In this document: piece after piece, positions 3,076 to 39,452 of the stretch
Numbering within the stretch: the first letter of the stretch is position 1
Layout: every line of letters starts with the position of its first letter
From: Effrenium voratum
Lineage: Eukaryota > Sar > Dinophyceae > Suessiales > Symbiodiniaceae
Direction: 5' to 3'
DNA length: 64,000 nt
Assembly: GCA_963377175.1 (NCBI GenBank)
Contig: CAUJNA010002791.1
Location: 62,001-126,000 of the forward strand
Notes under the pieces: generated by a model
The model's database searches: none
What the model was told of the DNA's origin: nothing
What the model saw: the letters and a program-made list of their open reading frames with translations, nothing else
Position numbers and translations under genes: made by a program

Positions 3076-3955
3076 GTTCGCAGCCACCGCAGAAAAGACG
3101 GAGGAGCAGCCCGCCATCCAGCAGACTGCACCATCCATAGAGCCTATTTATGCCGTTTGGACAGACCAAGACTGGGATCAATCATGGACATGGAACGAAC
3201 ATGGCTGGTACTCATCCCATGAGACATCCAGCACAGGACAAGCGTTAATGGCATTCCATGATGCATATGAGTATCCTGGGAAAAAGGCCATCCACGAGAA
3301 GCTGATCCAATCAGATACAGTTTCAGAACACAATCTGTCCGTCACAACAAATCACAGCCTTTTGGCAACAAAGCTGATGGCGCCTGTCATCAACCCTCAG
3401 CACAACCCGACCTATGCGATTCTGGACAATGGATGTACCAGATCTATGGGCAGCTGGCATGCAATCCAGCGTTTTACCCAGGCAATCGAACCAATGAAGG
3501 ACATCATCTCCTACGAGTACATCCCGGCCGAGACCAAGTTCACTTTTGCAAACGGAGAGACCGCCAGGGTAAATTGGACCCTGCATCTTCGATATCACAC
3601 AACTCCTCCATGCAGTACGAACATCGACATCCTTGAACAAGGAACTGTACCGATCCTTCTCAACATCAGCCAGATGCGGAACCTCTACATGACCATCGAG
3701 CACACACCTCAATGTGACAAGATCACATGCAAGGTCTTTGGCGTGAACCGTCAAGCAGTTCCAGTATCCGGTGCAGGACATGCACTCGTCGATCTCGCTG
3801 GAGTTGCAAGAGTGAAGGCGCATGGAGAAATTGCTCACAAGGGCCTCACCAACTATGTCTATGACGATGATAACAGCATCAATTTTCCTCCGGGGATCTC
3901 ACCAGGAGCGAAACTGGTTGTGCAGCAAAATCATCCGAGACAAAGGAGCACCTAG
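3076..3955 (+). CDS. Copia aspartic protease region
   Basis: The frame open from about 3076 to 3955 contains an ATG at 3248. Its YAILDNGCTRSMGS (about residues 58-71 from that ATG) matches the retropepsin active-site segment of copia elements (family vlDtGcs.smg). The Thr/Ser after the catalytic Asp reads Asn, so activity of this copy is uncertain. A second hydrophobic block (QGTVPILLNISQM, about 137-149) fits the C-terminal retropepsin strand. Upstream in the same frame is an acidic, Trp-rich linker. It lies between Gag and integrase as expected. Confidence 0.7.
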
Positions 3956-4029
3956 CAGCTCCTAAGATCATTGGATCTCAAAAGCAGGACCATTGGATCC
4001 TTGACAAGAAGAACAAGCATCTCATCCGT

Positions 4030-4620
4030 GTGCGTATCACGCCCCGAAAGGCGCTGTTCACACCAAATGGAGCCAAGGAATGTCCAACCAATCCTGATCA
4101 CATCAGCCGAGAACGTGCCACGGAGATCATTGATGCATCCACAGGTGGAGATCCAGATATCTTGGAAGACAATTGGAGACTTACATCCCAGGCAAATAAA
4201 CCGATGATTAACCTGTGGATAGGTAAGACCATTTTCACCTTCTCAGACAATTCGCTGAAGGACGTAGAAGCAGGTCCAGGATCGGCAGCAGACAGGATCA
4301 TCGACAAGAGGGGCCAGTTGACTATTGAGCCAGACCCTTTCGCACCATCCTCAGAAGAACCAACATCGCTTCCGCTTGCCCTAGGCAGAATCCACAAGCG
4401 ATTGTCGAATCCAGAAGAATTGAAGAAACTCCACCTGCAGCATCATCACATGACGACAGATCAATTTCGATTTAGAACCCGAGCACTTCATTTGCCGAAA
4501 TCAACATTCGATCTATTCGACAAGATCCGAAGTGAGTGCGAAGTTTGCCAAGTGGCGAAACATGCACCATCACGAAGCAAGACAAGCGGACTTCGACATC
4601 ATTGTTTTTGTCATCCTGGG
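4030..4620 (+). pseudogene. Integrase N-terminal zinc domain (GAG-pre-integrase)
   Basis: The frame contains H-x-H and C-x2-C ligands: KLHLQHHHMTTDQFRF, then about 35 residues later SECEVCQVAKHAPSR. This is the HHCC zinc-binding domain that precedes the copia integrase core. The 5' edge is simply where the frame opens (a GTG, not a credible start). The frame is lost at about 4590-4610, before the catalytic core, so the integrase is interrupted. Confidence 0.75.
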
Positions 4621-5288
4621 ATGGAGCAACAACATTGCTCACTGCAGAGGCAGTGACAACTACGCAAGAAGTCGAGAACATCACTGTCCTCAGGAACTAT
4701 TTTGACCAGTACCACTTGCAGCCCAAATCAGTTGTCGCAGATCAAGCCTTCATGACAGACACATGGGAACATGTCTATCAGTCCCTTGACATCACTCCGA
4801 TATCTCTGGGACCAAATACACCATGGCCAAATCGAGCTGAAGCAGCAGTTCGACTCCTGAAGGCACAACTCAAGATCATGCTGAGTTCCATCAAAGCAGG
4901 CACTGCACGTGCAACACTGAAGAAAGTGACCTATAGGCAACTGGTGAAGGCCGCTGCAACTGTCAGGAATCAAACCGTCACCTACCAGGGAGTAACTCCA
5001 TTGGAGCTCGCATTCGGAAGACGACCAGCAGATCTCATCCAACTCGATGTCGCAACTCCAACTCAGTTGACGATTGACAGGAATGAAGAAGAGATGACAG
5101 CCATCCAGATCAAGCAGCTGTCAAAGCAAGCTTTCCAAGAAGCACGTCAATCCGAGGACATCCGACGAGACCTTGCTCAAAATCTCCGAATGAGTTCAAA
5201 GCCTCTTCAAGTAAGGACAAGGTATTTTACTGGCAGGAAGACAAATCCAAGATTCGTTCCGATGGAAGCAAGGGAGGAATATGGCTAA
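4590..5288 (+). pseudogene. Integrase catalytic core (rve), frameshifted
   Basis: After the frame change, DGATTLLTAEAV supplies the first catalytic Asp region. VVADQAFMT has the second Asp, and NRAEAAVRLLKAQ has the DDE Glu in the usual copia spacing (family 'D..g.pE......n..iE'). Later RPADLIQLD and the basic tail match the integrase C-terminus. Retroviral-type DDE integrases insert the cDNA into host DNA. The frame stops at 5288, then reopens as the methyltransferase-like segment. Confidence 0.75.
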
Positions 5289-5372
5289 AGGGAAAAGTCA
5301 TTTCCATTGAAGGAGCAATGGTAGGACTTGATCTTGGGACTCGACTCATCAAGGTTAACATGACGAAGCTCA

Positions 5373-6455
5373 GTGCCATTACGTATCGCGGGAAAAACAA
5401 CTCCAAAACCTGCAGTACCTCATCCAGCAGAGAACATGTTCGTTGAGGACCTAACATCCATTCCTGAACAAGCACATTGGAATTGTGTACGTAAGGGAAA
5501 GATCCACGTTCTCGAGATCTTTGCAGGAAGTGCCAGATTCAGTCAATGCTGCGCACTGTCAGGTCTTAAGGTTGGGACTCCCGTGGACATCCGCACAGGA
5601 TTCGATGTAATGACCAAGGGACGACACATGGTCATGGAGATCATCAGGGAACAAGCACCTGATGTCATCCTTATGGCACCAGTCTGTGGACCATGGTCAA
5701 ATATGCAGAACATCCAGCAAGACCAGCAAAAGGTGGGGGAAAAGCGGAGACGCTACCTTCCCAAGGTTGAATTTGTGGCATCCATTGCGCGTTATCAGTT
5801 GAAGCACAGAAGATACTTCATTATCGAAAATCCTCAGACATCCAGGATATGGTATCTGAAATGCATGCAGCAATTGTTTTCAGACCCATCCGTGACCTGG
5901 GGAGATTTCCATTTCTGTGCATACGGACTAAAAGATCCTGAATCCGGACCCAGAAGTCTCAAGCCCACGAGCTTGATGCACTGTTTACCTTCCGAGGTTA
6001 TGAGACCGATCTTCAGAAGGTGTAAAAACTTTTCCAGCTCAGTAAAGCATGAACACCAACCCCTAGAGGGAAACGCTGGTTCCTTCGGAAGCAAAACCAA
6101 ACTGGCACAGGTGTATCCTTACCAGTTCTGTCAGGATCTTGCGCACATCATCTTACGACACTTGCAGGTGAAACCGCTTGACAACGAGGTGTACCTCTTG
6201 GAGGACCTTTTTGAACCATTCACCATCAAGCAGGTTGATATCCTGAGAAAGGAGATGGAAGCCATTGACAAGGAGTTCAACATGACCAGCACCAGTCTTG
6301 CAGTCAGAATCCAAGACCTGCTGTTCAACGAGGACGTTCAACCATTAGTCATTCAAGATCCGCTAGTTCAGAAATTCCAGAAGACGACGAAGCAGTACCC
6401 ACCTGGGACTGAAATTGATATCTTCAAGCAAGATCCTAATGACTGGCGATGTTAG
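5373..6455 (+). CDS. Cytosine-C5-methyltransferase-like domain inside copia Pol
   Basis: A 360-codon frame between integrase and RT. In order: VLEIFAGSARFSQ (residues 46-58) fits MTase motif I, a SAM-binding loop with F-G. DIRTGFD (72-78) fits the acidic motif II region. APVCGPWSN (102-110) fits motif IV with the catalytic Cys at 105, although the preceding Pro is Val. IIENPQTS (150-157) fits motif VI (ENV in most C5-MTases). KPTSLMHC (197-204) fits the motif VIII area. A C-terminal tail of about 120 residues is unassigned. C5-MTases transfer methyl groups from SAM to DNA cytosine; the ENP instead of ENV makes activity uncertain. The start is a GTG at the frame edge, so it is probably part of the polyprotein. 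Acquisition of C5-MTase domains by eukaryotic retrotransposons has been reported. Confidence 0.75.
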   Translation: MPLRIAGKTTPKPAVPHPAENMFVEDLTSIPEQAHWNCVRKGKIHVLEIFAGSARFSQCCALSGLKVGTPVDIRTGFDVMTKGRHMVMEIIREQAPDVILMAPVCGPWSNMQNIQQDQQKVGEKRRRYLPKVEFVASIARYQLKHRRYFIIENPQTSRIWYLKCMQQLFSDPSVTWGDFHFCAYGLKDPESGPRSLKPTSLMHCLPSEVMRPIFRRCKNFSSSVKHEHQPLEGNAGSFGSKTKLAQVYPYQFCQDLAHIILRHLQVKPLDNEVYLLEDLFEPFTIKQVDILRKEMEAIDKEFNMTSTSLAVRIQDLLFNEDVQPLVIQDPLVQKFQKTTKQYPPGTEIDIFKQDPNDWRC

Positions 6456-6479: not shown

Positions 6480-7440
6480 TTGAGACAACTGTGCATCTCA
6501 TCCACTCAGTATGATGCATGCACTGCATACGTCCACACCATTGGCATCAATATGCCTATTGCGTCACCTCCGGACGATGCAATCATATCCTTCTGGCAGC
6601 CTGATCAGCTGAATAGAATTTGGGTCTTGCCTGCATCAAAATGCAATTGGGAGAAGTATGATCCGAAGACGTGGCATGCTGTGATGTTTTCATCCGTTCA
6701 TGAGTCGTTCATCGCCGGCCATCAAGCCGATGCCCATCGAGACGGATCCATTGGATCCCACGGATGCACCTCAGCAACCTGACACACAGCAACCACCTGA
6801 TCAACCGGACCATCCCATGCCTGATCCAAGACCTCCAACACCTCCGGACGAGAGCATGTCAGATCCTCCTCCGGATCCCCCACATCAGCCTGATCATCCC
6901 ATGCCGCCAGCACCACGCAGTGTGTTGCCAGACAGTCCAGTGGATCCTCCACTGCCGCCACACGACAAGCCTGGCGGAGGAGACGCAGCGCTTAAACGGC
7001 AAACACAGTCCATTTCATCCTCAAGTGGGCTCAATCGACTGGGGGGTGATGTCTCTTTGCCGTCACAGTCGCAATCATCTCAGCCAATTCTTCCGACTGT
7101 CGTGGTACCTTCACCACCTGCGATTCTTACAAATCCCGAAGCAGAGGAATAAGATGAAGATCTTGAACCGCCGACACTTGTGCAAGAGGAAACAACCGGC
7201 AGTCCGTCAAAGAAGCAGAAGACTGGGAAGAAGAAGAAGAAGAAGAAGAAGAAGAAGCCAGATGACAATGATGAGTCACCTGGGCATTCTCCCAGACATG
7301 ACTGCATCTTCATCCAATTCTAATCCGAACAATCCAGCAAATTTGCCGGTTCAATATGAAAGTGAGGAAGAGCTGATTCCTCATGTTCCAACCTCATCCG
7401 GCACTGGAAGTTAAAGAACCATGAGATACACTGACCAGGA
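6480..7440 (+). other. Pol linker: Pro/Asp-rich and Lys-rich, frameshifted
   Basis: The 6480-6782 frame has a compact Trp-containing segment (AIISFWQPDQLNRIWVLP). It continues after a frame change near 6715 as a Pro/Asp/Gln-rich stretch (6715-7152), then an acidic to Lys-rich region encoded by (AAG)n at 7227-7258. A Lys tract of this kind could serve as a nuclear localisation signal. This is spacer between the MTase-like and RT domains, with no catalytic motifs. Confidence 0.55.
7227..7258. repeat. (AAG)n microsatellite
   Basis: About ten AAG units, coding for poly-Lys on the + strand. Confidence 0.85.
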
Positions 7441-7506
7441 AGATGGAGATTCAGAAGACTCTCAGAGGACCAGATCCTAGTTCTAGATGAAGCGCACTGG
7501 TCACTC

Positions 7507-8877
7507 ATGACAGCCGAACAGAAGATCTGTGCGAATACCGGATCCTTTAAGGTTCCGAGAGATATCGAAGGCAACCCTGTCCTACTTGGACGTGTGAAAG
7601 GGACCTTCAGTCCATCGCCCCGATGCGGATTCTCTCATCAGAAACACACAGATCAGAATCATGTTGACCAGCTATGCAAGAACATGACCGACGATGACCG
7701 TGCACTCCTAGTTCTGTATTCATCCAAGCAAGAATCCTTGAAGGCTTCATCCACATCCGCACTCATTGGCAAGAAGCGGAAGGAAGCTACAGCCACGGAA
7801 ATCAGAGCTTATCAGAAGCAATTCCTTGAAGCTAAGCAGCTTGAGTGCAAATCATGGCTTGAGAATGAAGTGTCCGACTTAGTCGATACACGCAAGATTC
7901 AGGTCAGGAACTGGGTCACCGGTCGATGGGTCCTAACCCTGAAGCGAGACAAGGATGGTAACTTCTTGAAGAGCAAGGCTCGCTGGGTCCTCCGAGGCTT
8001 CCAAGACAAGCAGAAGAATGATCAGCAGACAGACAGTCCTGCTGCATCCAGGAGTGGTTTCCGCCTTGCAATCCAAGCAGCCTCAAATAAAGGCTGGAAT
8101 ATATTCCACATGGATTTGAAGACAGCGTTTCTCCAAGGCGAAGCATATGACCAGTCTCGTGACATCATTTGTCAGATACCTCCTGAAATGGGATATCCAC
8201 CCCACATTGGAGCGCGCATGAAGAAGCCTGCATACGGGCTGAATGACGCACCACGTCGATGGTGGAACATCCTTGATTCGGCACTCCGTTCGTACGGACT
8301 AGTGCCAACCCGGGCAGACCGTTGTACATACGTGTACTACGGCAAGCAGCTTCCGAAGCCCGCATTGGTGAGTGAAAAGAAATCATCCACAGCTTTCGAT
8401 CTAGAAGGAGCAGTTGATTACCTAATGGATCCTGTTTCTGGTAACAATGCTAAGAATCGACAAGTTCATGGAGTCCTATCTCTTCATGTAGATGATCTTC
8501 TTATGACGGGGGATGACGTGTTCGAGAAGGACATCATGGGACGACTTCGGCAAGATTTTCAGGTTGGTTCCGAGGACAAACATGGTTGCGTAGGACAGCG
8601 CGTCCAATGGAAGCAAGATGACAAGCATGGTTGGTGCATCAATGTTCATCAGAACGTTGCCATCGACGAATTGCAGGAGATCACTTTTGACAAACACCTG
8701 AAGGACGACACTCCTCTTACTCCACAGATCAACTGGTTACAGTCGCGAACGCAATTCCACATTGGTTATCAATTCTCAAGGCGTGCATCCAAGGCATCAT
8801 CACCAACCATTGAGGACGTTCGCGCCATTAACAAGACAGCCAGGTCAGAACCCTCAAAAGCATCCCGCTTAGCGTGA
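7507..8877 (+). CDS. Copia reverse transcriptase (RVT_2)
   Basis: 456 codons from ATG 7507. The copia RT signature runs NWVTGRWVLTLKRD, KARWVLRGF, IFHMDLKTAFLQGE (first catalytic Asp, residue 203), MKKPAYGLNDAPRRWW, RADRCTYVYY and LSLHVDDLL (the YVDD box as HVDD, Asp 329-330). RT makes cDNA from the genomic RNA. There are no stops within the domain. After about residue 400 the frame carries the connection region and ends at 8877, where RNase H continues in another frame, so there is at least one frameshift at the RT/RNase H border. Confidence 0.92.
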   Translation: MTAEQKICANTGSFKVPRDIEGNPVLLGRVKGTFSPSPRCGFSHQKHTDQNHVDQLCKNMTDDDRALLVLYSSKQESLKASSTSALIGKKRKEATATEIRAYQKQFLEAKQLECKSWLENEVSDLVDTRKIQVRNWVTGRWVLTLKRDKDGNFLKSKARWVLRGFQDKQKNDQQTDSPAASRSGFRLAIQAASNKGWNIFHMDLKTAFLQGEAYDQSRDIICQIPPEMGYPPHIGARMKKPAYGLNDAPRRWWNILDSALRSYGLVPTRADRCTYVYYGKQLPKPALVSEKKSSTAFDLEGAVDYLMDPVSGNNAKNRQVHGVLSLHVDDLLMTGDDVFEKDIMGRLRQDFQVGSEDKHGCVGQRVQWKQDDKHGWCINVHQNVAIDELQEITFDKHLKDDTPLTPQINWLQSRTQFHIGYQFSRRASKASSPTIEDVRAINKTARSEPSKASRLA

Positions 8878-9659
8878 GATTCTGGCCCCTTTGTGGCAAG
8901 ACACGCAAAGTTGGCTATCCAGACGCATCCTATCGCAACAACGAGGATAAGTCATCCCAGCGTGCGCATGTTATTTTTCTTGCAGAACAAAGAGATCTTC
9001 GCCAGGGCTCATCGAATTCGAGAGGCTCATTGGTCGACTATGAGACGCACAAGATCACCGCCACAACCATGTCCACTACTGTTGCAGAGTTGCACGGACT
9101 AATGCGTTGTTACGGTTCAGCATTATTTCTTCGCGGTCTTTGGTCAGACATAACGGGCGAAATTGCAGATGTGCACATCCGCACTGATGCGAACAATCTT
9201 GTCACCACAGCATCCACAACACATCAACCGGAACAGAAAGAAACAATGCATTTGATCCAGATGTTGAGAAAGGAAAGCAACAGCGGACAGATGCACGACC
9301 TTGCACATGTACGAAGTGAAGATTGTCTGGCAGATTCGCTGACCAAGCATTCAGCTAAAGCAGACGAGCTCATCAAGGCCGTCCTCACCGGCAATCTCTT
9401 GAATGTAGATGCACATCCACCCTTCCGTACCATGTTGCAGAACAAGGCATTCTTGGTTGAGTGGCTAGCGCACAACACGAAGCACGGACCCGACATCATT
9501 GCCTTTGCAGGAGTCGGTGTAGCAGAATCCATGTTTGCTTATTGGGGAACCTGGGCATGGTCCGCATGTCCACGAATTCTGATGCATGAGTTTTTCAGTT
9601 TTGCATATTTTCACTTCCTCAATTCCGTGATGCGCGTGTTTGCACTTGACCCATTTTGA
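8874..9659 (+). CDS. Copia RNase H domain
   Basis: The frame overlaps the RT stop and starts without an ATG, so it is a frameshifted continuation. GYPDASY (Asp 17), TVAELHGL (Glu 72) and IRTDANNL (Asp 105) give the D-E-D of copia RNase H, and LADSLTKH is the family's 'aD.lTK' hallmark. RNase H degrades the RNA strand of the RNA:DNA hybrid. An unassigned hydrophobic/aromatic tail follows (AYWGTWAWSACPRILM..). Confidence 0.88.
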   Translation: MRFWPLCGKTRKVGYPDASYRNNEDKSSQRAHVIFLAEQRDLRQGSSNSRGSLVDYETHKITATTMSTTVAELHGLMRCYGSALFLRGLWSDITGEIADVHIRTDANNLVTTASTTHQPEQKETMHLIQMLRKESNSGQMHDLAHVRSEDCLADSLTKHSAKADELIKAVLTGNLLNVDAHPPFRTMLQNKAFLVEWLAHNTKHGPDIIAFAGVGVAESMFAYWGTWAWSACPRILMHEFFSFAYFHFLNSVMRVFALDPF

Positions 9660-10300
9660 ATCTCAAGAAATATGTGTCTGCCTCCGCAGCCACTTTCGGT
9701 TTACAACCAATCCGACCTTTGCAATCTTGTATGCTCGATCATCTCGTTGACATGCCCATCCTCAACCTGATGTTTGGACGATCCGGCGATGCGGCACCTG
9801 TGCCAAAGCCGATGATCAAGAGACGGGCGTCACCATTGAAGGAATCCCCTGCTCGTGATGAGGAAGATGAGACATCCGATTGCCCCATGGAGCAAGTCGC
9901 TGATGAGAATCCATCCGCCTCTCAACAACCCGAGAATGTCAACATGGAGCAGGTTGATTATGATCCAGATTCCGACGATGATGATTCAGATGAAGAAGGG
10001 CATCCTCTCGAAGGAAGGCCTTTGTCAAAGGCGATGCCACATCCGAAACTTGTTCCAAAGTCACCGCCACCGACATTGAGGCTTGTCTCCAAGGTCAAGC
10101 CAGCACCAAAGAACACCCTGGATGACGAGACGGAATCCGACAATCATCCTGGTGATCGACCTGCACTTCCAAGGCGACCAGTGATGCGGCCTGTTCTCAC
10201 ATCCAACGATCGGTGGTTTGTAACATATGGATCGGATACGAACATCAGCCTCCAGAAGGAATCCGTGCACCCAGAACCATTCGGAAACTCAAATTCCTGA
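9656..10300 (+). CDS. Acidic Pro-rich linker ORF after RNase H
   Basis: The frame opens at the RNase H stop (TTG edge, no clear start). It is low in complexity, with Glu/Asp clusters (DYDPDSDDDDSDEEGH) alternating with Pro/Lys segments. The last 30 codons overlap the next frame (10213), which carries the Tpt1-like domain. It is probably a disordered spacer of a long polyprotein. I do not recognise a domain. Confidence 0.5.
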   Translation: MNLKKYVSASAATFGLQPIRPLQSCMLDHLVDMPILNLMFGRSGDAAPVPKPMIKRRASPLKESPARDEEDETSDCPMEQVADENPSASQQPENVNMEQVDYDPDSDDDDSDEEGHPLEGRPLSKAMPHPKLVPKSPPPTLRLVSKVKPAPKNTLDDETESDNHPGDRPALPRRPVMRPVLTSNDRWFVTYGSDTNISLQKESVHPEPFGNSNS

Positions 10301-12405
10301 CGTTTGTGCACGAATACTACAAGGAATGCTCAACCATCCTTGATGTCAATCCGGACTTCCACTTCGTTCCTGAACACGAGAGACCGCATGGAGTTAAGGT
10401 ATTCTGGTTGAAGGCAAGATTCAACGATTACTGGCATCCGACACTCCAAGGTGAAGGACCTCATGCAGAAAAGCAATACATGGACTTCATCAAGAAGGTC
10501 TACAGCATCTGCTGCTACAGCAATGCTCAATCCGAAGTTTACGGAACCGACATCATCCCGATGGTATGCCACAACGGCAACATTGATCTCGATAAGACCG
10601 TCCAGAATGTCGAACAGGTTTGCAAATATTTCCGCATGGAAACATCCAAGGCGAAACAGATCACAGATCTCATCCTCTGGCGAATTGAGAGAATGAGCAG
10701 ATCGTTTTCCGGATGTCTTCGACATGATCCAAGGCATGGAATCCATAAGGAATGCAAACGGCAGGTGGAAATGGGTCCTGATGGATCCGTCGAGCTCTAT
10801 GACGCATTGACCTGCATCACACATGCCAGGAACTTCATTGGAAACAAGCCAGGACTTCTCTTGATGGCTATGTTCCCGAGCTATGGAAAATCACGTTTCG
10901 AAATTGCTTTCGTATTTCCATCCGTGGACGGGACATATAATGAGCGCAAGGCACGGGGAGAAATTGTTCCAAGGAATCGATGGATCGACAAGCTCAACAC
11001 CAGATCCGCACAAAGTGCACTCAGGCCCGATGGCAAGGACTTCTATGTTGATCCTGAGATGGAGTTCTATGTGAGATGCAACAGCGGACACACACGACAA
11101 GTCGATATCCAATCCTTTGGACGACCCCTGTTCTCTGAGCAGAAAGAGCCTCATTACGACGAACCGGACTATGATTTGCCAACGGAATCCATTCCGCCAA
11201 GTCCGCATCCGTCAAGATCCGAGGCGCCTCATGGAGATGAAAGCACAGCTCAGCCCAAGTACAGAATGCGAAGGCCGGCACCACCATCCGTTGAAGAAGA
11301 GAGAAAGATCAAGCCGTTCTCGAAGAAGCCCATCACATTCATGTTCCATGCAACCTATGGAAGTCAGCTCTACAGCATCATGGAGCACGGGCTCAAATCT
11401 GGGAAGTCCCAGTCAAACCCTTCGGGGAGAATGCACGTTCACATGGCATGCATCGATGACGTCATCCTCGAAGACGATGAGTCAGAAACCGCATTGACCC
11501 ATGTGCCAGCAGGAAGAGATGCGTTGCTGATCCTTGCATTTCTCAAGGACCAAGACTATGGCATCCGCCTTTCCGAAGAGAGAACAGCGTTGACAGACAA
11601 AACCATCGAGGCAAGAAACATTGTTGCAGCATTCGAACCTGATGGCAGCCTCATGGCGAGCAACAAGTGGATCATGAAGAAGTATCTCGATCATGAAGAT
11701 TACGAGATGTACGACACCAAGATCCGCGAATTCGCCGATGCCTTCTTCACGTATGTGAATTCCACCAAGCACAACAAGGAAAAAGATACCTCCTCAGAGA
11801 CCAAGAAGAGACGGCATTCCACCGATCAGGACTCCACCGAAGGAGAAATGATGGAACCCTCCGGGGAAAGATCCGTCAAGCCCAAGGTCATCGTGGAATA
11901 TCACAATTCAGTGAACCTAGAAGAGTTCATCCAAGAACTCAAGGGAATCTATCTCGAAATAGATATGAACAAAAAGGACGCAGAGGAAGAGCTCGCGGGG
12001 ATCAAGGAAGAACTCAAACGCTTCATGAACCAGTTCAACAAAGATCTGAAAGGAGCTCATCCCAAGTTGACAGAGCGCGAGAGAGCCTCATTGGCACATG
12101 TCGATCCTGATGTCAATCTCGGTGAAGAAGAATTCTACTTCCCTCATCGAGGAGAATGTCCCACCATTGACGAGTACAAGCAAGCTCAACCAGGATCCGG
12201 ATATCCGATCAAGCTGCCGCTTGGACTGAAGAAGCTCAGGTCACAAGATGACCCGAAAATCATCCGAGCCTATGCCGATATCCTGGGATCGCTGATGCAG
12301 CCGACTGACCGTCCTTCCGTGGACTATCTCAACATGCATGAGTTCACCTCATCCATAGGGATCAACATCCTTACCCTGAACCATGGAAACCTAACATGCC
12401 GATGA
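10213..12405 (+). CDS. KptA/Tpt1-like RNA 2'-phosphotransferase domain protein (retroelement cargo)
   Basis: 730 codons. Residues 161-200 (MSRSFSGCLRHDPRHG.. then DGSVELYDAL) match the N-lobe of KptA/Tpt1, family 'iSk.LSyiLRHdp..g...d..G.v.v.dLL', with Arg170-His171. SRFEIAF (227-233) fits the 'qRFel' strand. After a disordered insertion, FMFHATYGSQLYSIMEHGL (377-395) fits 'lyHGT.....I...GL', and GRMHVHMA (405-412) fits the NAD-binding 'R.HVHLa' segment. DALLILAF (about 430-437) fits the next strand. Tpt1 enzymes remove the 2'-phosphate left by tRNA ligation using NAD+. The insertion between the lobes is unusually long, and a coiled-coil/Glu-rich tail follows. The ORF ends at a likely frameshift into the EEP domain (INILTLNHGN just before the stop). 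Confidence 0.7.
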   Translation: MVCNIWIGYEHQPPEGIRAPRTIRKLKFLTFVHEYYKECSTILDVNPDFHFVPEHERPHGVKVFWLKARFNDYWHPTLQGEGPHAEKQYMDFIKKVYSICCYSNAQSEVYGTDIIPMVCHNGNIDLDKTVQNVEQVCKYFRMETSKAKQITDLILWRIERMSRSFSGCLRHDPRHGIHKECKRQVEMGPDGSVELYDALTCITHARNFIGNKPGLLLMAMFPSYGKSRFEIAFVFPSVDGTYNERKARGEIVPRNRWIDKLNTRSAQSALRPDGKDFYVDPEMEFYVRCNSGHTRQVDIQSFGRPLFSEQKEPHYDEPDYDLPTESIPPSPHPSRSEAPHGDESTAQPKYRMRRPAPPSVEEERKIKPFSKKPITFMFHATYGSQLYSIMEHGLKSGKSQSNPSGRMHVHMACIDDVILEDDESETALTHVPAGRDALLILAFLKDQDYGIRLSEERTALTDKTIEARNIVAAFEPDGSLMASNKWIMKKYLDHEDYEMYDTKIREFADAFFTYVNSTKHNKEKDTSSETKKRRHSTDQDSTEGEMMEPSGERSVKPKVIVEYHNSVNLEEFIQELKGIYLEIDMNKKDAEEELAGIKEELKRFMNQFNKDLKGAHPKLTERERASLAHVDPDVNLGEEEFYFPHRGECPTIDEYKQAQPGSGYPIKLPLGLKKLRSQDDPKIIRAYADILGSLMQPTDRPSVDYLNMHEFTSSIGINILTLNHGNLTCR

Positions 12406-13384
12406 AGGATCGACCGATCGTCAAGATGATGATGCAGAACAGTGCACACATCTTATGCCTGAATGAGGCAGACGCATTCTTCAGTCCGAATGATGAGAAA
12501 TCCAGGGAGCTCATCAAGACGTTCATCCGATACGGTTACAAGGGCATTGTGATCAAGCAATGGTCATCCAGACCGATCGCATGCTTTGTCCGCGGCGGAC
12601 CCTCTGCACGAGTGGAACTTCTGGCAAGACACATTTCTACCAGGAGCCAGAATTGGGGAACCACATTCGGAATGTTCAGATGTTTTTTTTCGGAACCAAA
12701 GGAGATGGCACTGATCCCGAATACGAAATTCCGACCTCGGATTGCTTGGCAACCACAGGAACATCCATGTTTACCGAACCCAAGAAGTACATTGGATCGA
12801 GATTGCCAGCACGCACCATTGTCCAAGGACATGGCCGAGACAAGGAGATCGTCGTTCTCCACATCGAGCAGAGTGATGAGTTTCGTGGCATGATCCCGAA
12901 ATCATCCGACAAGTCATACTACGAGTATGACGACCGCCACATAACGAGGGCAGATCTACCATTCGCAACCATTGGAGTCTTCCACATCCATCCTTCACTT
13001 AGCCATGGAGCAGCAAAGGAAGATCTTCAGAATGAAATCATGCCGCTCGTGACCTTGTACCGATGCGATGCGATCACCGGAGACGCCAACAAATCGGCGA
13101 ACACCTACAGCAAACTCCAGCATGTCTACAATCCAACCAACGGTCTCGTGAACATCCTCATGAGAGCATATCAGAGACTGTGGAATGCGACGAAGAATTT
13201 GTCACTCGTGGACAGAATGGAGTATACAGTGGAGACTTCGTGCACCCTGAAATCCATTGTCCGTCATCACCTGTACATGAAATGCGGATCAGGTTTTGAT
13301 CGAACATTTCCAGATGTGATGATGACTATCGTATTTGGATGGGGCAAAACGAACATCCAGCAGGACTATGAACAGTATGGATGA
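12355..13384 (+). pseudogene. DNase I-like (endonuclease/exonuclease/phosphatase) domain, two frameshifts
   Basis: Read across two frame changes, the order is that of the EEP fold: INILTLNHGN (first metal-site Asn, end of the previous ORF), ILCLNEAD (catalytic Glu at 12465-12467), then after the shift RDKEIVVLHIEQ, ATIGVFHIHPS (the central His strand) and CDAITGDANKSANTY (family GD.N, Asp at 13082). Frame breaks are at about 12395 and at a run of eight T (about 12681-12688), a classic indel site. I do not see the C-terminal SDH motif clearly. EEP proteins cleave phosphodiester bonds; LINE elements use one as their endonuclease, but copia elements normally have none. Assignment rests on motif order only. 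Confidence 0.6.
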
Positions 13385-13487
13385 TGAACAACTGGAATTC
13401 ATGCGGAACCATCCAGACAAGGCCATTTTCGATTACCAGGTCTCATCCGCAGAGCGCTACAAGCACGTGAACAATGAAATGTCATGA
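13377..13487 (+). CDS. 36-codon ORF overlapping neighbours
   Basis: ATG 13377 overlaps the upstream stop (ATGGATGA), and its own stop overlaps the next ATG (ATGA at 13484). It encodes a charged peptide (MDDEQLEFMRNHPDKA..). It may be a translated small ORF or a fragment of the retroelement polyprotein. Confidence 0.3.
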   Translation: MDDEQLEFMRNHPDKAIFDYQVSSAERYKHVNNEMS

Positions 13488-13702
13488 ACGGCTCGCAGGA
13501 CTCCGACTCCCACAGTCCTCTCAAACGCAGCTCTGAGAGATACCAGGATTACGTCAAGAAGAGACAATCCTGGACCATGCAGGAGTACAAGGACTACAAC
13601 AAGCAGTGGGGATATCAGAAGCAGTGGAAGGACTATAGCAGTTCGACCTGGAATGATTATGGAGACCATGGCAGTCAATCCAACAGCAGCCGCCGATGGT
13701 AG
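13484..13702 (+). CDS. 72-codon Tyr/Lys/Trp-rich ORF
   Basis: Starts at ATG 13484. It is rich in Tyr, Lys, Gln and Trp (YQDYVKKRQSWTMQEYKDY), predicted basic and probably disordered. No family recognised. It is the last frame before the non-coding 3' end and LTR. Confidence 0.3.
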   Translation: MNGSQDSDSHSPLKRSSERYQDYVKKRQSWTMQEYKDYNKQWGYQKQWKDYSSSTWNDYGDHGSQSNSSRRW

Positions 13703-14045
13703 CGTCGATCCGACTGACCATGAAGATACGTTCAGCACCACGAGCAATCCAGATGATTGATCCTCCTCTTCTACAAGACTATACCATGAGTGAGTGACAA
13801 CTGTTCCGCGTGTACATAGTACATCACCCTCTGATACAATTAGGTATCCAAAAAGAAGCGTACATAGTGTTTCCCATTTCGAAGGCCAAGACATTTCATC
13901 CAGCAGAAAAAGGATGAATCCGGCACTTTTAATCACATGGCTACGGCACACATTAAGGCTACGGTCAAAGGCCATGAAGCCAACAGTGTTTCATACTTTG
14001 TGCTGGAGATCAAAAGAAATTTGTCTGTTTTCTGTTCTGTTTTTC
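13703..14045 (+). other. 3' untranslated interior of copia element
   Basis: No coding signal. It ends in a T-rich stretch directly before the 3' LTR. An A/G tract (about 14008-14018) lies 27 bp upstream of the LTR, but there is no polypurine tract abutting it. Confidence 0.5.
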
Positions 14046-14303
14046 AGACCATTGATCTCCCGCAACATTTGGCTCAAGGCCCCTTTTGCATAATGACGAC
14101 CATCCGAGCGTGAGGACAAAAGAGCCATTGCAGGCCGCTTACAGGACTAGCCATCAGACAATCCACCAGGGACAATCCATCCTCCAATCATCCATTACTG
14201 GCATATTGGACTCTCCCCGGAATAGATCCAGGGACCAACAACGACCTCAACTACCACAGGGTTCCAGTTCTCCGGGGATAGGCGCCTGGGGCAGTGGGCC
14301 TCA
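14046..14303 (+). repeat. 3' LTR
   Basis: Second copy of 1465-1722, with about three small indels and five substitutions by eye. It contains the DinoSL-like segment at 14060-14078. Immediately downstream is a long C run. Confidence 0.92.
14060..14078 (+). other. DinoSL-like segment in 3' LTR
   Basis: Same sequence as 1479-1497, unchanged between the two LTRs. Confidence 0.45.
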
Positions 14304-14507: not shown

Positions 14508-15510
14508 TTCGACACGCAGAGGGTTCGCCCGCGTGCCGCAAAAATGAAAAAAACCTCGAGCTTTTGCACCTCGGCCGCGCCGATCCCTGCAGAGGGTCGC
14601 GCGGGCACGCCGATCGCCGCAGAGGGTCGCGCGGGCAGATCAGAAATCGCAAAAACCTTGAGTTTTTTGCACCTCGACCACGCCGATCCCCGCAGAGGGT
14701 TCATCCGCGCACCGCAAAAACGCAACAAATCCTCGAGTTTTTGCACCTCGACCACGCCGATCCCCGCAGAGGGTCACGCGCACCGCAAAAACGCAAAAAT
14801 CCACGAGTTTTTGCACCTCGACCACGCCGATCCCCGCCGAGGGTTCATCCGCGCGCCGCAAAAACGCCCCAAAAAAAACCAAAAAACAACAAGAAAACCA
14901 ACCTCGAGTTTTTGCACGCCGATCCCCGCAGAGGGTCGCGCGGGCGGATCAGAAATCGCAACAAAACCTCGAGTTTTTGCACCTCGACCGCGCCGATCCC
15001 TGCAGAGGGTCGCGCGGGCACGCCGATCGCCGCAGAGGGTCGCGCGGGCAGATCAGAAATCGCAAAAACCTTGAGTTTTTTGCACCTCGACCACGCCGAT
15101 CCCCGCAGAGGGTTCATCCGCGCACCGCAAAAACGCAACAAATCCTCGAGTTTTTGCACCTCGACCACGCCGATCCCCGCAGAGGGTTCATCCGCGCACC
15201 GCAAAAACGCAACAAATCCTCGAGTTTTTGCACCTCGACCACGCCGATCCCCGCAGAGGGTCACGCGCACCGCAAAAACGCAAAAAAATCCACGAGTTTT
15301 TGCACCTTGACCACGCCGATCCCCGCCGAGGGTTCATCCGCGCGCCGCAAAAACGCCAAAAAAAAACCAAAAAACAACAAGAAAACCAACCTCGAGTTTT
15401 TGCACGCCGATCCCCGCAGAGGGTCGCGCGGGCGGATCAGAAATCGCAAAAAAACCTCGAGTTTTTGCACCTCGACCACGCCGATCCCCACACAGGGTCG
15501 CAAACCCGAT
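14508..15510. repeat. CpG-rich satellite with higher-order repeat
   Basis: Subunits of about 74-100 bp carry CTCGAGTTTTTGCACCTCGA, then CACGCCGATCCCCGCAGAGG, then either a GCGCGGGC/GATCAGAAATCGCA or a TTCATCCGCG/CACCGCAAAAACGC linker. The block from 14566 recurs from 14979 (offset 413). The block around 14903 recurs at 15391 (offset 488), the difference being one extra subunit. Frames on both strands stay open (Arg/Pro/Ser-rich), but this is a property of the repeat. Confidence 0.85.
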
Positions 15511-15561
15511 CGACGATCACAGTCCTCCCTAGAAACCTAAACTTAACTTACATGCTAACGC

Positions 15562-15965
15562 CGAGCTATGCACTTGGCTCTATGCACTCGGCTCTGTGCA
15601 CTCGGCTCTATGCACTTGGCTCTACGCACTCGGCTCTATGCACTTGGCTCTACGCACTTGGCTCTTTGCACTTGGCTCTATGCACTTGGCTCTACGCACT
15701 TGGCTCTATGCACTTGGCTCTACGCACTCGGCTCTATGCACTTGGCTCTACGCACTTGGCTCTCTGCACTTGGCTCTATGCACTTGGCTCTACGCACTTG
15801 GCTCTATGCACGGCTCTATGCACTTGGCCCCACGCACTTAGCTCTGTGCACTCGGCTCTATGCACTCGGGTCTTTGCACTTGGCTCTATGCACTTGGCTC
15901 TATGCACTTGGCTCTATGCACTTGGCTCCATGCACCGGCTCTATGTGTTTGACTCTGCGCCAGTG
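15562..15965. repeat. 14-bp tandem minisatellite
   Basis: About 28 units of (A/C/G)TGCACTTGGCTCT type, with variable first bases (ATGCAC, ACGCAC, CTGCAC, TTGCAC) and CTTGG/CTCGG alternation. All three + frames are open because 14 bp gives a 14-residue period in every frame (LYALGSMHLALCTW-like). Unlikely to be coding. Confidence 0.9.
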
Positions 15966-16049
15966 ACTCTATGCAAGTTGGTCCGAGAGCTCCGCGCGGA
16001 AGAACCCTTCGCGATGCTTTCGGGAACAAAAATAATGCACAAAATAAAT

Positions 16050-34869: not shown

Positions 34870-34988
34870 TTTGTTAATGTTGAAACGCATGTGGAAACAT
34901 GAACTGTGTGTGGAATGCTTGACCATAATGGCATGTGCCATTTTGGCTCAAGCTTTGCTCTGGGTTCCTGGAACCCAAGCTGATTGAA
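34870..34988 (+). repeat. Split direct repeat A1
   Basis: 119 bp matching A2 (39334-39452) essentially base for base. Contains DinoSL sequence at 34937-34952 and a GGTTCCTGGAACC hairpin downstream of it. Confidence 0.93.
34937..34952 (+). other. DinoSL relic in A1
   Basis: GCCATTTTGGCTCAAG equals the last 16 bases of the dinoflagellate spliced leader. The AG end is the trans-splice junction side. Confidence 0.8.
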
Positions 34989-39333: not shown

Positions 39334-39452
39334 TTTGTTAATGTTGAAACGCATGTGGAAACATGAACTGTGTGTGGAATGCTTGACCATAATGGCATGT
39401 GCCATTTTGGCTCAAGCTTTGCTCTGGGTTCCTGGAACCCAAGCTGATTGAA
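39334..39452 (+). repeat. Split direct repeat A2
   Basis: 119-bp copy of A1, immediately after B1. The B1A2 junction is the circle junction used in DIRS/PAT replication. Confidence 0.93.
39401..39416 (+). other. DinoSL relic in A2
   Basis: Same 16-base DinoSL 3' end as in A1. Confidence 0.8.

Follow-up and report, generated by a model that had tools for sequence, protein, structure and literature searches.

A predicted Tpt1/KptA-family domain in the third open reading frame of a copia retrotransposon of Effrenium voratum

The stretch analysed here is a window of 64,000 nucleotides from the dinoflagellate Effrenium voratum (contig CAUJNA010002791.1, positions 62,001 to 126,000), in which the region around 10213-12405 is part of a copia long terminal repeat (LTR) retrotransposon with a third open reading frame (ORF) after pol. 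This ORF encodes a divergent Tpt1/KptA-family domain with both of its lobes, and the domain is under purifying selection in a multi-copy element family. In our view the best explanation overall, with a probability of about 0.5, is that the domain would serve the element as an NAD+-dependent RNA 2'-phosphotransferase. Tpt1 is known from tRNA splicing, and its role where splicing does not need it is an open question; retroelements that keep Tpt1 under selection would allow a direct test of the use of the enzyme for RNA that is copied into DNA.

Assignment of the domain to the Tpt1/KptA family

An initial annotation, made from the letters of the window, had described a Tpt1-like enzyme in a 730-residue frame, and its motifs were all read in that frame where it had placed them: LRHDP with Arg170-His171, SRFEIAF, FHATYG...IMEHGL and GRMHVHMA, to which YVRCNSGH (residues 286-293) can now be added. 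The frame at 10213-12405 exists as described; it is not, however, a complete ORF, the window copy being split over several frames (9650-10300, 10156-12405, 12342-12893 and 12497-13384).

A significant profile match to Tpt1/KptA had been set as the test beforehand, and it was obtained with both Pfam and hhalign. PF01885 was the best Pfam match of the whole frame, in two stretches, with a score of 25.2 bits (E 2e-5) that just misses the curated cut-off of 26; once the linker between the two lobes was removed, the score rose to 34.8 bits (E 2.1e-8), covering model positions 4-146 of 177. Against a canonical KptA alignment of eight proteins (E. coli and seven phage records), hhalign gave a probability of 96.6% and a score of 69.0 over 167 columns with the linker removed, and 83.5% and 50.8 with the linker kept. 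As controls for the score of 69.0, 40 column shuffles did not exceed 24.3, the reversed alignment reached 15.0, and E. coli EEP proteins reached 14.8. Further, all six members of a trimmed alignment (A4) matched PF01885 at E <=10, the E-value having been seen for the first member only. Two relatives, scanned as complete proteins, lie near the cut-off (P0002 at 24.8 bits; P0065, which bears a precomputed PF01885 annotation, at 25.9 bits), and P0026, which holds part of the domain only, gave E 0.12.

The domain resembles canonical members such as E. coli KptA in having both lobes in order, the LRH motif and a conserved GRDALLIL block, and its remaining motifs have canonical counterparts: YVRxxxGH corresponds to IRAxxGHS, FHATY to LYHGT, and GRxHVHxA to RxxVHLS. 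It differs from KptA in its identity of 24% over the aligned columns, in an insertion of ~45 residues before YVR, in the linker of ~60 residues between the lobes, and in lying inside a retroelement ORF, which in relatives is 1330-1407 aa long.

The element, its copies and selection on the domain

The carrier is typed as copia by its RVT_2-type reverse transcriptase (RT), and since a pair of LTRs encloses the region, the Tpt1 frame lies inside one element, of 12.8 kb with both LTRs of ~260 bp. The RT is upstream of the frame, in agreement with the placement between the copia RNase H and the 3' LTR in the initial annotation. We regard this anatomy, that of a copia element with a Tpt1-family domain, as nearly certain. 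Its features are as follows:

1462-1722, + strand: 5' LTR, 253 of 263 columns identical to 14043-14303
1734-2996, + strand: gag-like ORF with no defined start, a 420-aa open frame assigned by position only
3874-5288, + strand: putative integrase region in overlapping broken frames (ORFs 3874-4656 and 4536-5288)
7435-8877, + strand: copia RT, Pfam RVT_2 at 7435-8874 (69 bits, E 6e-19)
8832-9659, + strand: pol end, presumed RNase H region, preceding the Tpt1 frame in 29 of 30 loci
9650-10300, + strand: acidic, proline-rich N-terminal part of the third ORF, which also begins relatives P0064 and P0065
10657-11148, + strand: predicted Tpt1 N-lobe (residues 149-312) with Arg170-His171 and Arg288; profile match
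11149-11328, + strand: inter-lobe linker, not in canonical KptA; gap in the profile alignment
11329-11643, + strand: predicted Tpt1 C-lobe with FHATY and GRMHVHMA (Arg406); profile match
12342-13678, + strand: C-terminal domain, conserved in relatives and in broken frames here (tblastn of P0064 and P0026)
14043-14303, + strand: 3' LTR, 253 of 263 columns matching 1462-1722

The integrase candidate at 4536-5285 lies 5' of the RT, as in copia, and matches an IS481 transposase weakly (17.7 bits, cut-off 224; E 0.002); the stretch 3874-4653 matches in tblastn the pol of a second copia-like lineage, described below (E 2e-6), and the Pfam scan found no rve in the window frames. The region 8832-9659, without a Pfam match, we take to be RNase H from a familiar motif and from its position. 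Inspection of the element flanks by eye revealed no target site duplication. Some LTR elements carry an env-like gene at this place after pol.

The genome searched comprises 1.156 Gb in 3,699 contigs, and copy counts are lower bounds. A search with the frame gave at least 65 matching stretches; of these, at least 58 (counting the window's own) extend over 580 or more of the 730 residues. In 29 of the 30 loci compared, the window's own among them, the RNase H region directly precedes the Tpt1 frame; L036 is the exception. For 8 other copies the end pieces were compared: 6 have the 3' LTR where it is expected, 3 have both LTRs, and copies C3208 and C969 showed neither at those places. Copy number, RNase H context and LTRs together indicate that the domain travels with the element, and the initial annotation's own counter-case, a lone host gene hit by an element, falls with them. 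An artefact of this kind, either an insertion in an ordinary host Tpt1 gene or a set of chance motifs, would suit the whole-frame Pfam score just below the curated cut-off; it is already refuted by the number of stretches, the RNase H context, the LTRs, the controls of the profile match and a separate, far more canonical host-like Tpt1 locus (L059, see below), and we leave it next to no probability.

An intact form of the third ORF is present in two relatives, which hold it whole in single open frames of 1330 and 1407 aa and are 47% and 50% identical over the domain. In both, the Tpt1 domain is flanked by the acidic N-terminal part and by another domain, C-terminal and conserved, and the longer ORF begins with the part that directly follows pol in the window. 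No relatives in viral contigs were found in the scans. The C-terminal domain displays the motif order NHG, LNE, HxH, GDxN, which resembles that of EEP nucleases/phosphatases. The profiles do not support this identity, as hhalign against three E. coli EEP proteins scored 17.1 and 40 shuffles reached 21.1, and no Pfam EEP match was found in the relatives scanned; a model of the domain had a mean predicted local distance difference test (pLDDT) of 40.6, and the fold search with that low-confidence model returned 0 matches at E <=0.001. The idea of an EEP and Tpt1 end-healing pair in the copia element was dropped, since the profile comparison gave it no support. Another locus, L022 (G000:C969:68614-70683), is listed with an open frame of 4239 aa and has no LTR at the expected places; no fused polyprotein is proposed for it, its two RT pieces being in different frames as worked out by hand from tblastn coordinates.

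The residues that mark the active site are kept in almost every copy that was compared. Across 30 loci of this one genome, which include the window's own and, as the best-scoring loci, are biased to intact copies, Arg170 is present in 29, His171 in 29, Arg288 in all 30 and Arg406 in 28. We take Arg18, His19 and Arg66 of CthTpt1 to correspond to the LRH and YVRC motifs, and the role of the last arginine (that of GRMHVH) is likewise assumed. The roles of the three CthTpt1 residues are those given in PMC6333775 (in part), where two arginines are assigned to the second catalytic step of Tpt1.

Selection was assessed by the median pairwise ratio of nonsynonymous to synonymous substitution rates (dN/dS), the pairs not being independent. 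It was 0.30 for the N-lobe (410 pairs from the 30 loci, none at >=1), 0.21 for the C-lobe (385 pairs, 2 at >=1) and 0.37 for the linker (364 pairs, 14 at >=1), with 0.25 and 0.37 for the parts upstream and downstream of the lobes; the RNase H region gave 0.28 (28 of 30 loci), a rough value because the frame used has a stop in 27 of the 28. The lobes are thus about as constrained as the pol end, and the linker only slightly less. The similar constraint on the neighbouring parts, together with the strong divergence from KptA and the inserted linker, would also suit a non-enzymatic RNA- or NAD-binding module of a structural third-ORF protein, employed in particle or ribonucleoprotein assembly; against this stand the catalytic residues, kept in 28 to 30 of the 30 copies, and we consider such a module quite improbable.

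Other Tpt1-carrying repeat families of the genome

Beyond the view of the initial annotation, which knew of no copia element with such a domain, Tpt1 also occurs in further repeat families of this genome. A PF01885 search of the genome gave 558 candidates, 150 of which were scored, with at least 150 matches, all above the cut-off; the family of the window is absent from the 150 listed, its scores being lower than the lowest of them.

The clearest class (L060-L078) is a long interspersed nuclear element (LINE) with Tpt1 in the ORF that precedes the RT ORF, and the family also includes loci L083, L091 and L092. Its Tpt1 is canonical, with the R, H, R and R residues in 19 of 19 loci, and its median dN/dS of 0.05 (163 pairs) corresponds to very strong purifying selection. 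The ORF after the Tpt1 ORF holds Exo_endo_phos (27.3 bits) and RVT_1 (48.2 bits) matches, as seen in L083, downstream of L077, and the RT part of this second ORF was present in both of the two further copies examined. The first ORF, in frames of 235-2062 aa, has hydrophobic segments, an OTU-like motif and Tpt1; the motif, GR(G/S)NCFWYA, shares one open frame with Tpt1 in 12 of 19 loci, and its likeness to OTU proteases is our assumption, with no Pfam match.

A second copia-like lineage is represented by a 1114-aa frame in at least 43 of the 150 listed matches, two of which were read (L079 and L080); its loci are L079, L080, L085 and L086 (G000:C221, G000:C3222), and the Tpt1 of L079 scores 57.3 bits with PF01885. 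The 1114-aa frame follows pol, and CCCH zinc fingers occur in the gag/pol region. The RT gave a weak RVT_2 match in L086 (19.4 bits, E 9e-4; cut-off 31.6), and L085, the pol piece of the other copy, had no Pfam match. We presume a copia-type RNase H from a familiar motif, there being no Pfam match in L080 1-1740. No LTRs were found in the pieces compared, and for this reason the lineage is called copia-like.

A third class (L081, L082 and L090), repeated in the genome, carries Tpt1 within a 1632-aa frame (64.6 bits in L082); the stretch before Tpt1 in L081 and L082, which has no Pfam match, presumably resembles an SF1 helicase. Loci L088 and L089 form a class in which the motif reads VKAVAGH or IKAVAGH, the second Arg being replaced by Lys; a tail rich in Arg/Ser and proline follows. 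Finally, L059 has a 277-aa frame matching PF01885 at 173 bits, much more canonical than the family of the window, and resembles a Tpt1 gene of the host itself.

In a tree of 24 Tpt1 domains, with the linker removed from the rows of the window family, each element family formed one well-supported group (100/100 for the window family and 96/98 for the LINE); the order between groups was not resolved, and branches were long. A single capture of Tpt1 followed by transfer between element families may have taken place.

A possible role, and its place among captured enzymes

An RNA 2'-phosphotransferase acting for the element would work as follows. Host nucleases would cut element RNA, and a fungal/plant-type ligase, assumed to be present in the host, would rejoin it, leaving a 2'-phosphate at the junction that would expose the RNA to further cleavage or decay and would hinder reverse transcription. 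The Tpt1 of the element would then remove this phosphate with NAD+ from its own RNA or from the tRNA primer, and an element copied from RNA would gain by clearing such marks. A 2'-phosphate would be expected to stop reverse transcriptases. A LINE needs no tRNA primer, and repair of the template RNA consequently accounts for both carriers better than primer repair alone; moreover, the presence of Tpt1 in the LINE and in the second copia-like lineage points to a need common to RNA-copying elements. Regarding the chemistry, Tpt1 converts the 2'-phosphate left by fungal tRNA ligase to ADP-ribose cyclic phosphate (PMC6333775, in part), and upon deletion of yeast tpt1, ligated HAC1 mRNA that retains the 2'-phosphate is cleaved and degraded (PMC6456296, in part). 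KptA inside a few positive-strand RNA virus polyproteins (PMC9503650, in part) is also counted as support. We lean towards intact family members being enzymatically active, judging from their sequences, and we put the chances that repair of element RNA is the selected role a little short of even.

Several observations weigh against this reading. Four more divergent relatives (P0063, P0064, P0025 and P0017), scanned whole, had no PF01885 match at E <=10; the AlphaFold2 model of the domain is of low confidence (mean pLDDT 46.8), and Foldseek with that low-confidence model returned 0 matches at E <=0.001; and no Tpt1 chain was retrieved in PDB sequence searches with P0001, A2, A4 and P0065 (single sequences or profiles). 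Family membership is drawn from the profile evidence with its controls, to which structure models and PDB searches add no support. As for the predicted catalysis, P0064, in the longest open frame, has Gly for the Arg of GRxHVH, and in both copies read from the second copia-like lineage the LRH motif has lost its His and the second Arg is replaced by Lys, so that not every such domain can work canonically.

The altered active site of that lineage would fit the loss of the second catalytic step, and with it a domain that ADP-ribosylates, either capping phosphate ends of element RNA or complementary DNA or marking host RNA or protein, in order to evade decay or sensing. The second-step arginines are, however, kept in 29 and 30 of the 30 loci of the window family and in 19 of 19 LINE loci, and a complete 2'-phosphotransferase therefore fits better than ADP-ribosylation alone, which we judge unlikely. 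A further alternative is counter-defence on host RNA, in which the enzyme would reverse 2'-phosphate marks or help to repair tRNA cut by a host RNase triggered by transposition. The LINE, with no need of a tRNA primer, has the most canonical element Tpt1, which would agree with this, as would the KptA of some jumbo phages, taken to restore tRNAs (PMC9503650, in part). On the other hand, the parts of the elements scanned with Pfam (which are not whole elements) contained no recognisable RNA ligase or RNA kinase, so that only one repair step would be supplied, and we hold counter-defence to be distinctly unlikely.

The preferred reading, a 2'-phosphotransferase that serves the element, could be extended to the genome as a whole. 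Several retroelement classes (the copia family of the window, the second copia-like lineage, the LINE and perhaps the class thought to carry a helicase) would each have captured Tpt1 independently, as the host cuts or marks retroelement RNA in ways that lead to 2'-phosphates; dinoflagellate retrotransposition would then depend in general on their removal, which would also be the trace of a defence, based on RNA, that has yet to be described. We put this forward as a doubtful proposal. The recurrence of Tpt1 in LINE and copia elements suggests that 2'-phosphorylated RNA is an obstacle that reverse transcriptases really meet in these cells, and is a hint that the host may defend itself at the level of RNA.

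Retroelements with other captured nucleic-acid enzymes are known, and what is new here is the enzyme class, Tpt1, added to the short list of nucleic-acid modifiers captured by retroelements. The SymbioLINE-Dnmt and SymbioDIRS-Dnmt3 elements of Symbiodinium (PMC5890265, in part) are alike in that a LINE and DIRS elements of a dinoflagellate have gained a nucleic-acid enzyme and preserved its key residues, and unlike in that the enzyme is a cytosine methyltransferase, with another chemistry; the abundant copia elements of Symbiodinium carry no DNMT domain according to the same source, and the words Tpt1 and phosphotransferase are absent from its main text. A Ty3/Gypsy element of orchids with an ORF for an AlkB-type m6A RNA demethylase (PMC9289625, in part) is likewise an LTR element with an extra RNA-enzyme ORF and conserved cofactor residues; it differs in being a Gypsy element with a demethylase whose activity was demonstrated in vitro, whereas the predicted phosphotransferase of the window copia is known from sequence. 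Viral KptA has been described in jumbo phages, Bodo saltans mimivirus, a picorna-like virus and a nidovirus (PMC9503650, in part), which are mobile elements as well, with the domain in a polyprotein in some; the main text of that survey has no word beginning with transposon, retrotransposon or retroelement. No report of Tpt1/KptA in any retroelement was found in titles and abstract starts among the matches listed, from a literature whose coverage lacks most subscription journals and preprints, so this absence is weak evidence of novelty.

Among minor observations on the element, a methyltransferase within pol (5364-6455) was considered from its motifs (EIFAGSARF, APVCGPWS) and rejected, as neither Pfam nor NCBIfam gave a relevant match and PDB gave no meaningful one; the stretch after the RNase H in the second copia-like lineage shows weak similarity to this same part of the window (tblastn E 0.003). 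The sequence CATTTGGCTCAAG occurs near the start of both LTRs (1485-1497 and 14066-14078) and by eye nearly matches the dinoflagellate spliced leader at its end, lacking one T, as though reverse transcription had at some time brought a leader into the LTR. Exact matches to the 15 terminal bases of the spliced leader, whose sequence was taken from PMC6050394 (in part), are found at 34938-34952 and 39402-39416, both inside copies of one repeat; with up to 3 mismatches, the leader end is not enriched in the window (6 occurrences, against 3.55 on average in shuffles, of which 16 in 100 reach 6). Taken with the types of element and the size of the genome, the two exact matches agree with a dinoflagellate host. 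Soon after the element, a repeat array spans 14547-15977 with spacings of ~70-74 bases and one family at 14651-15374, and the repeat region is closed by a 14-base tandem array at 15519-15977.

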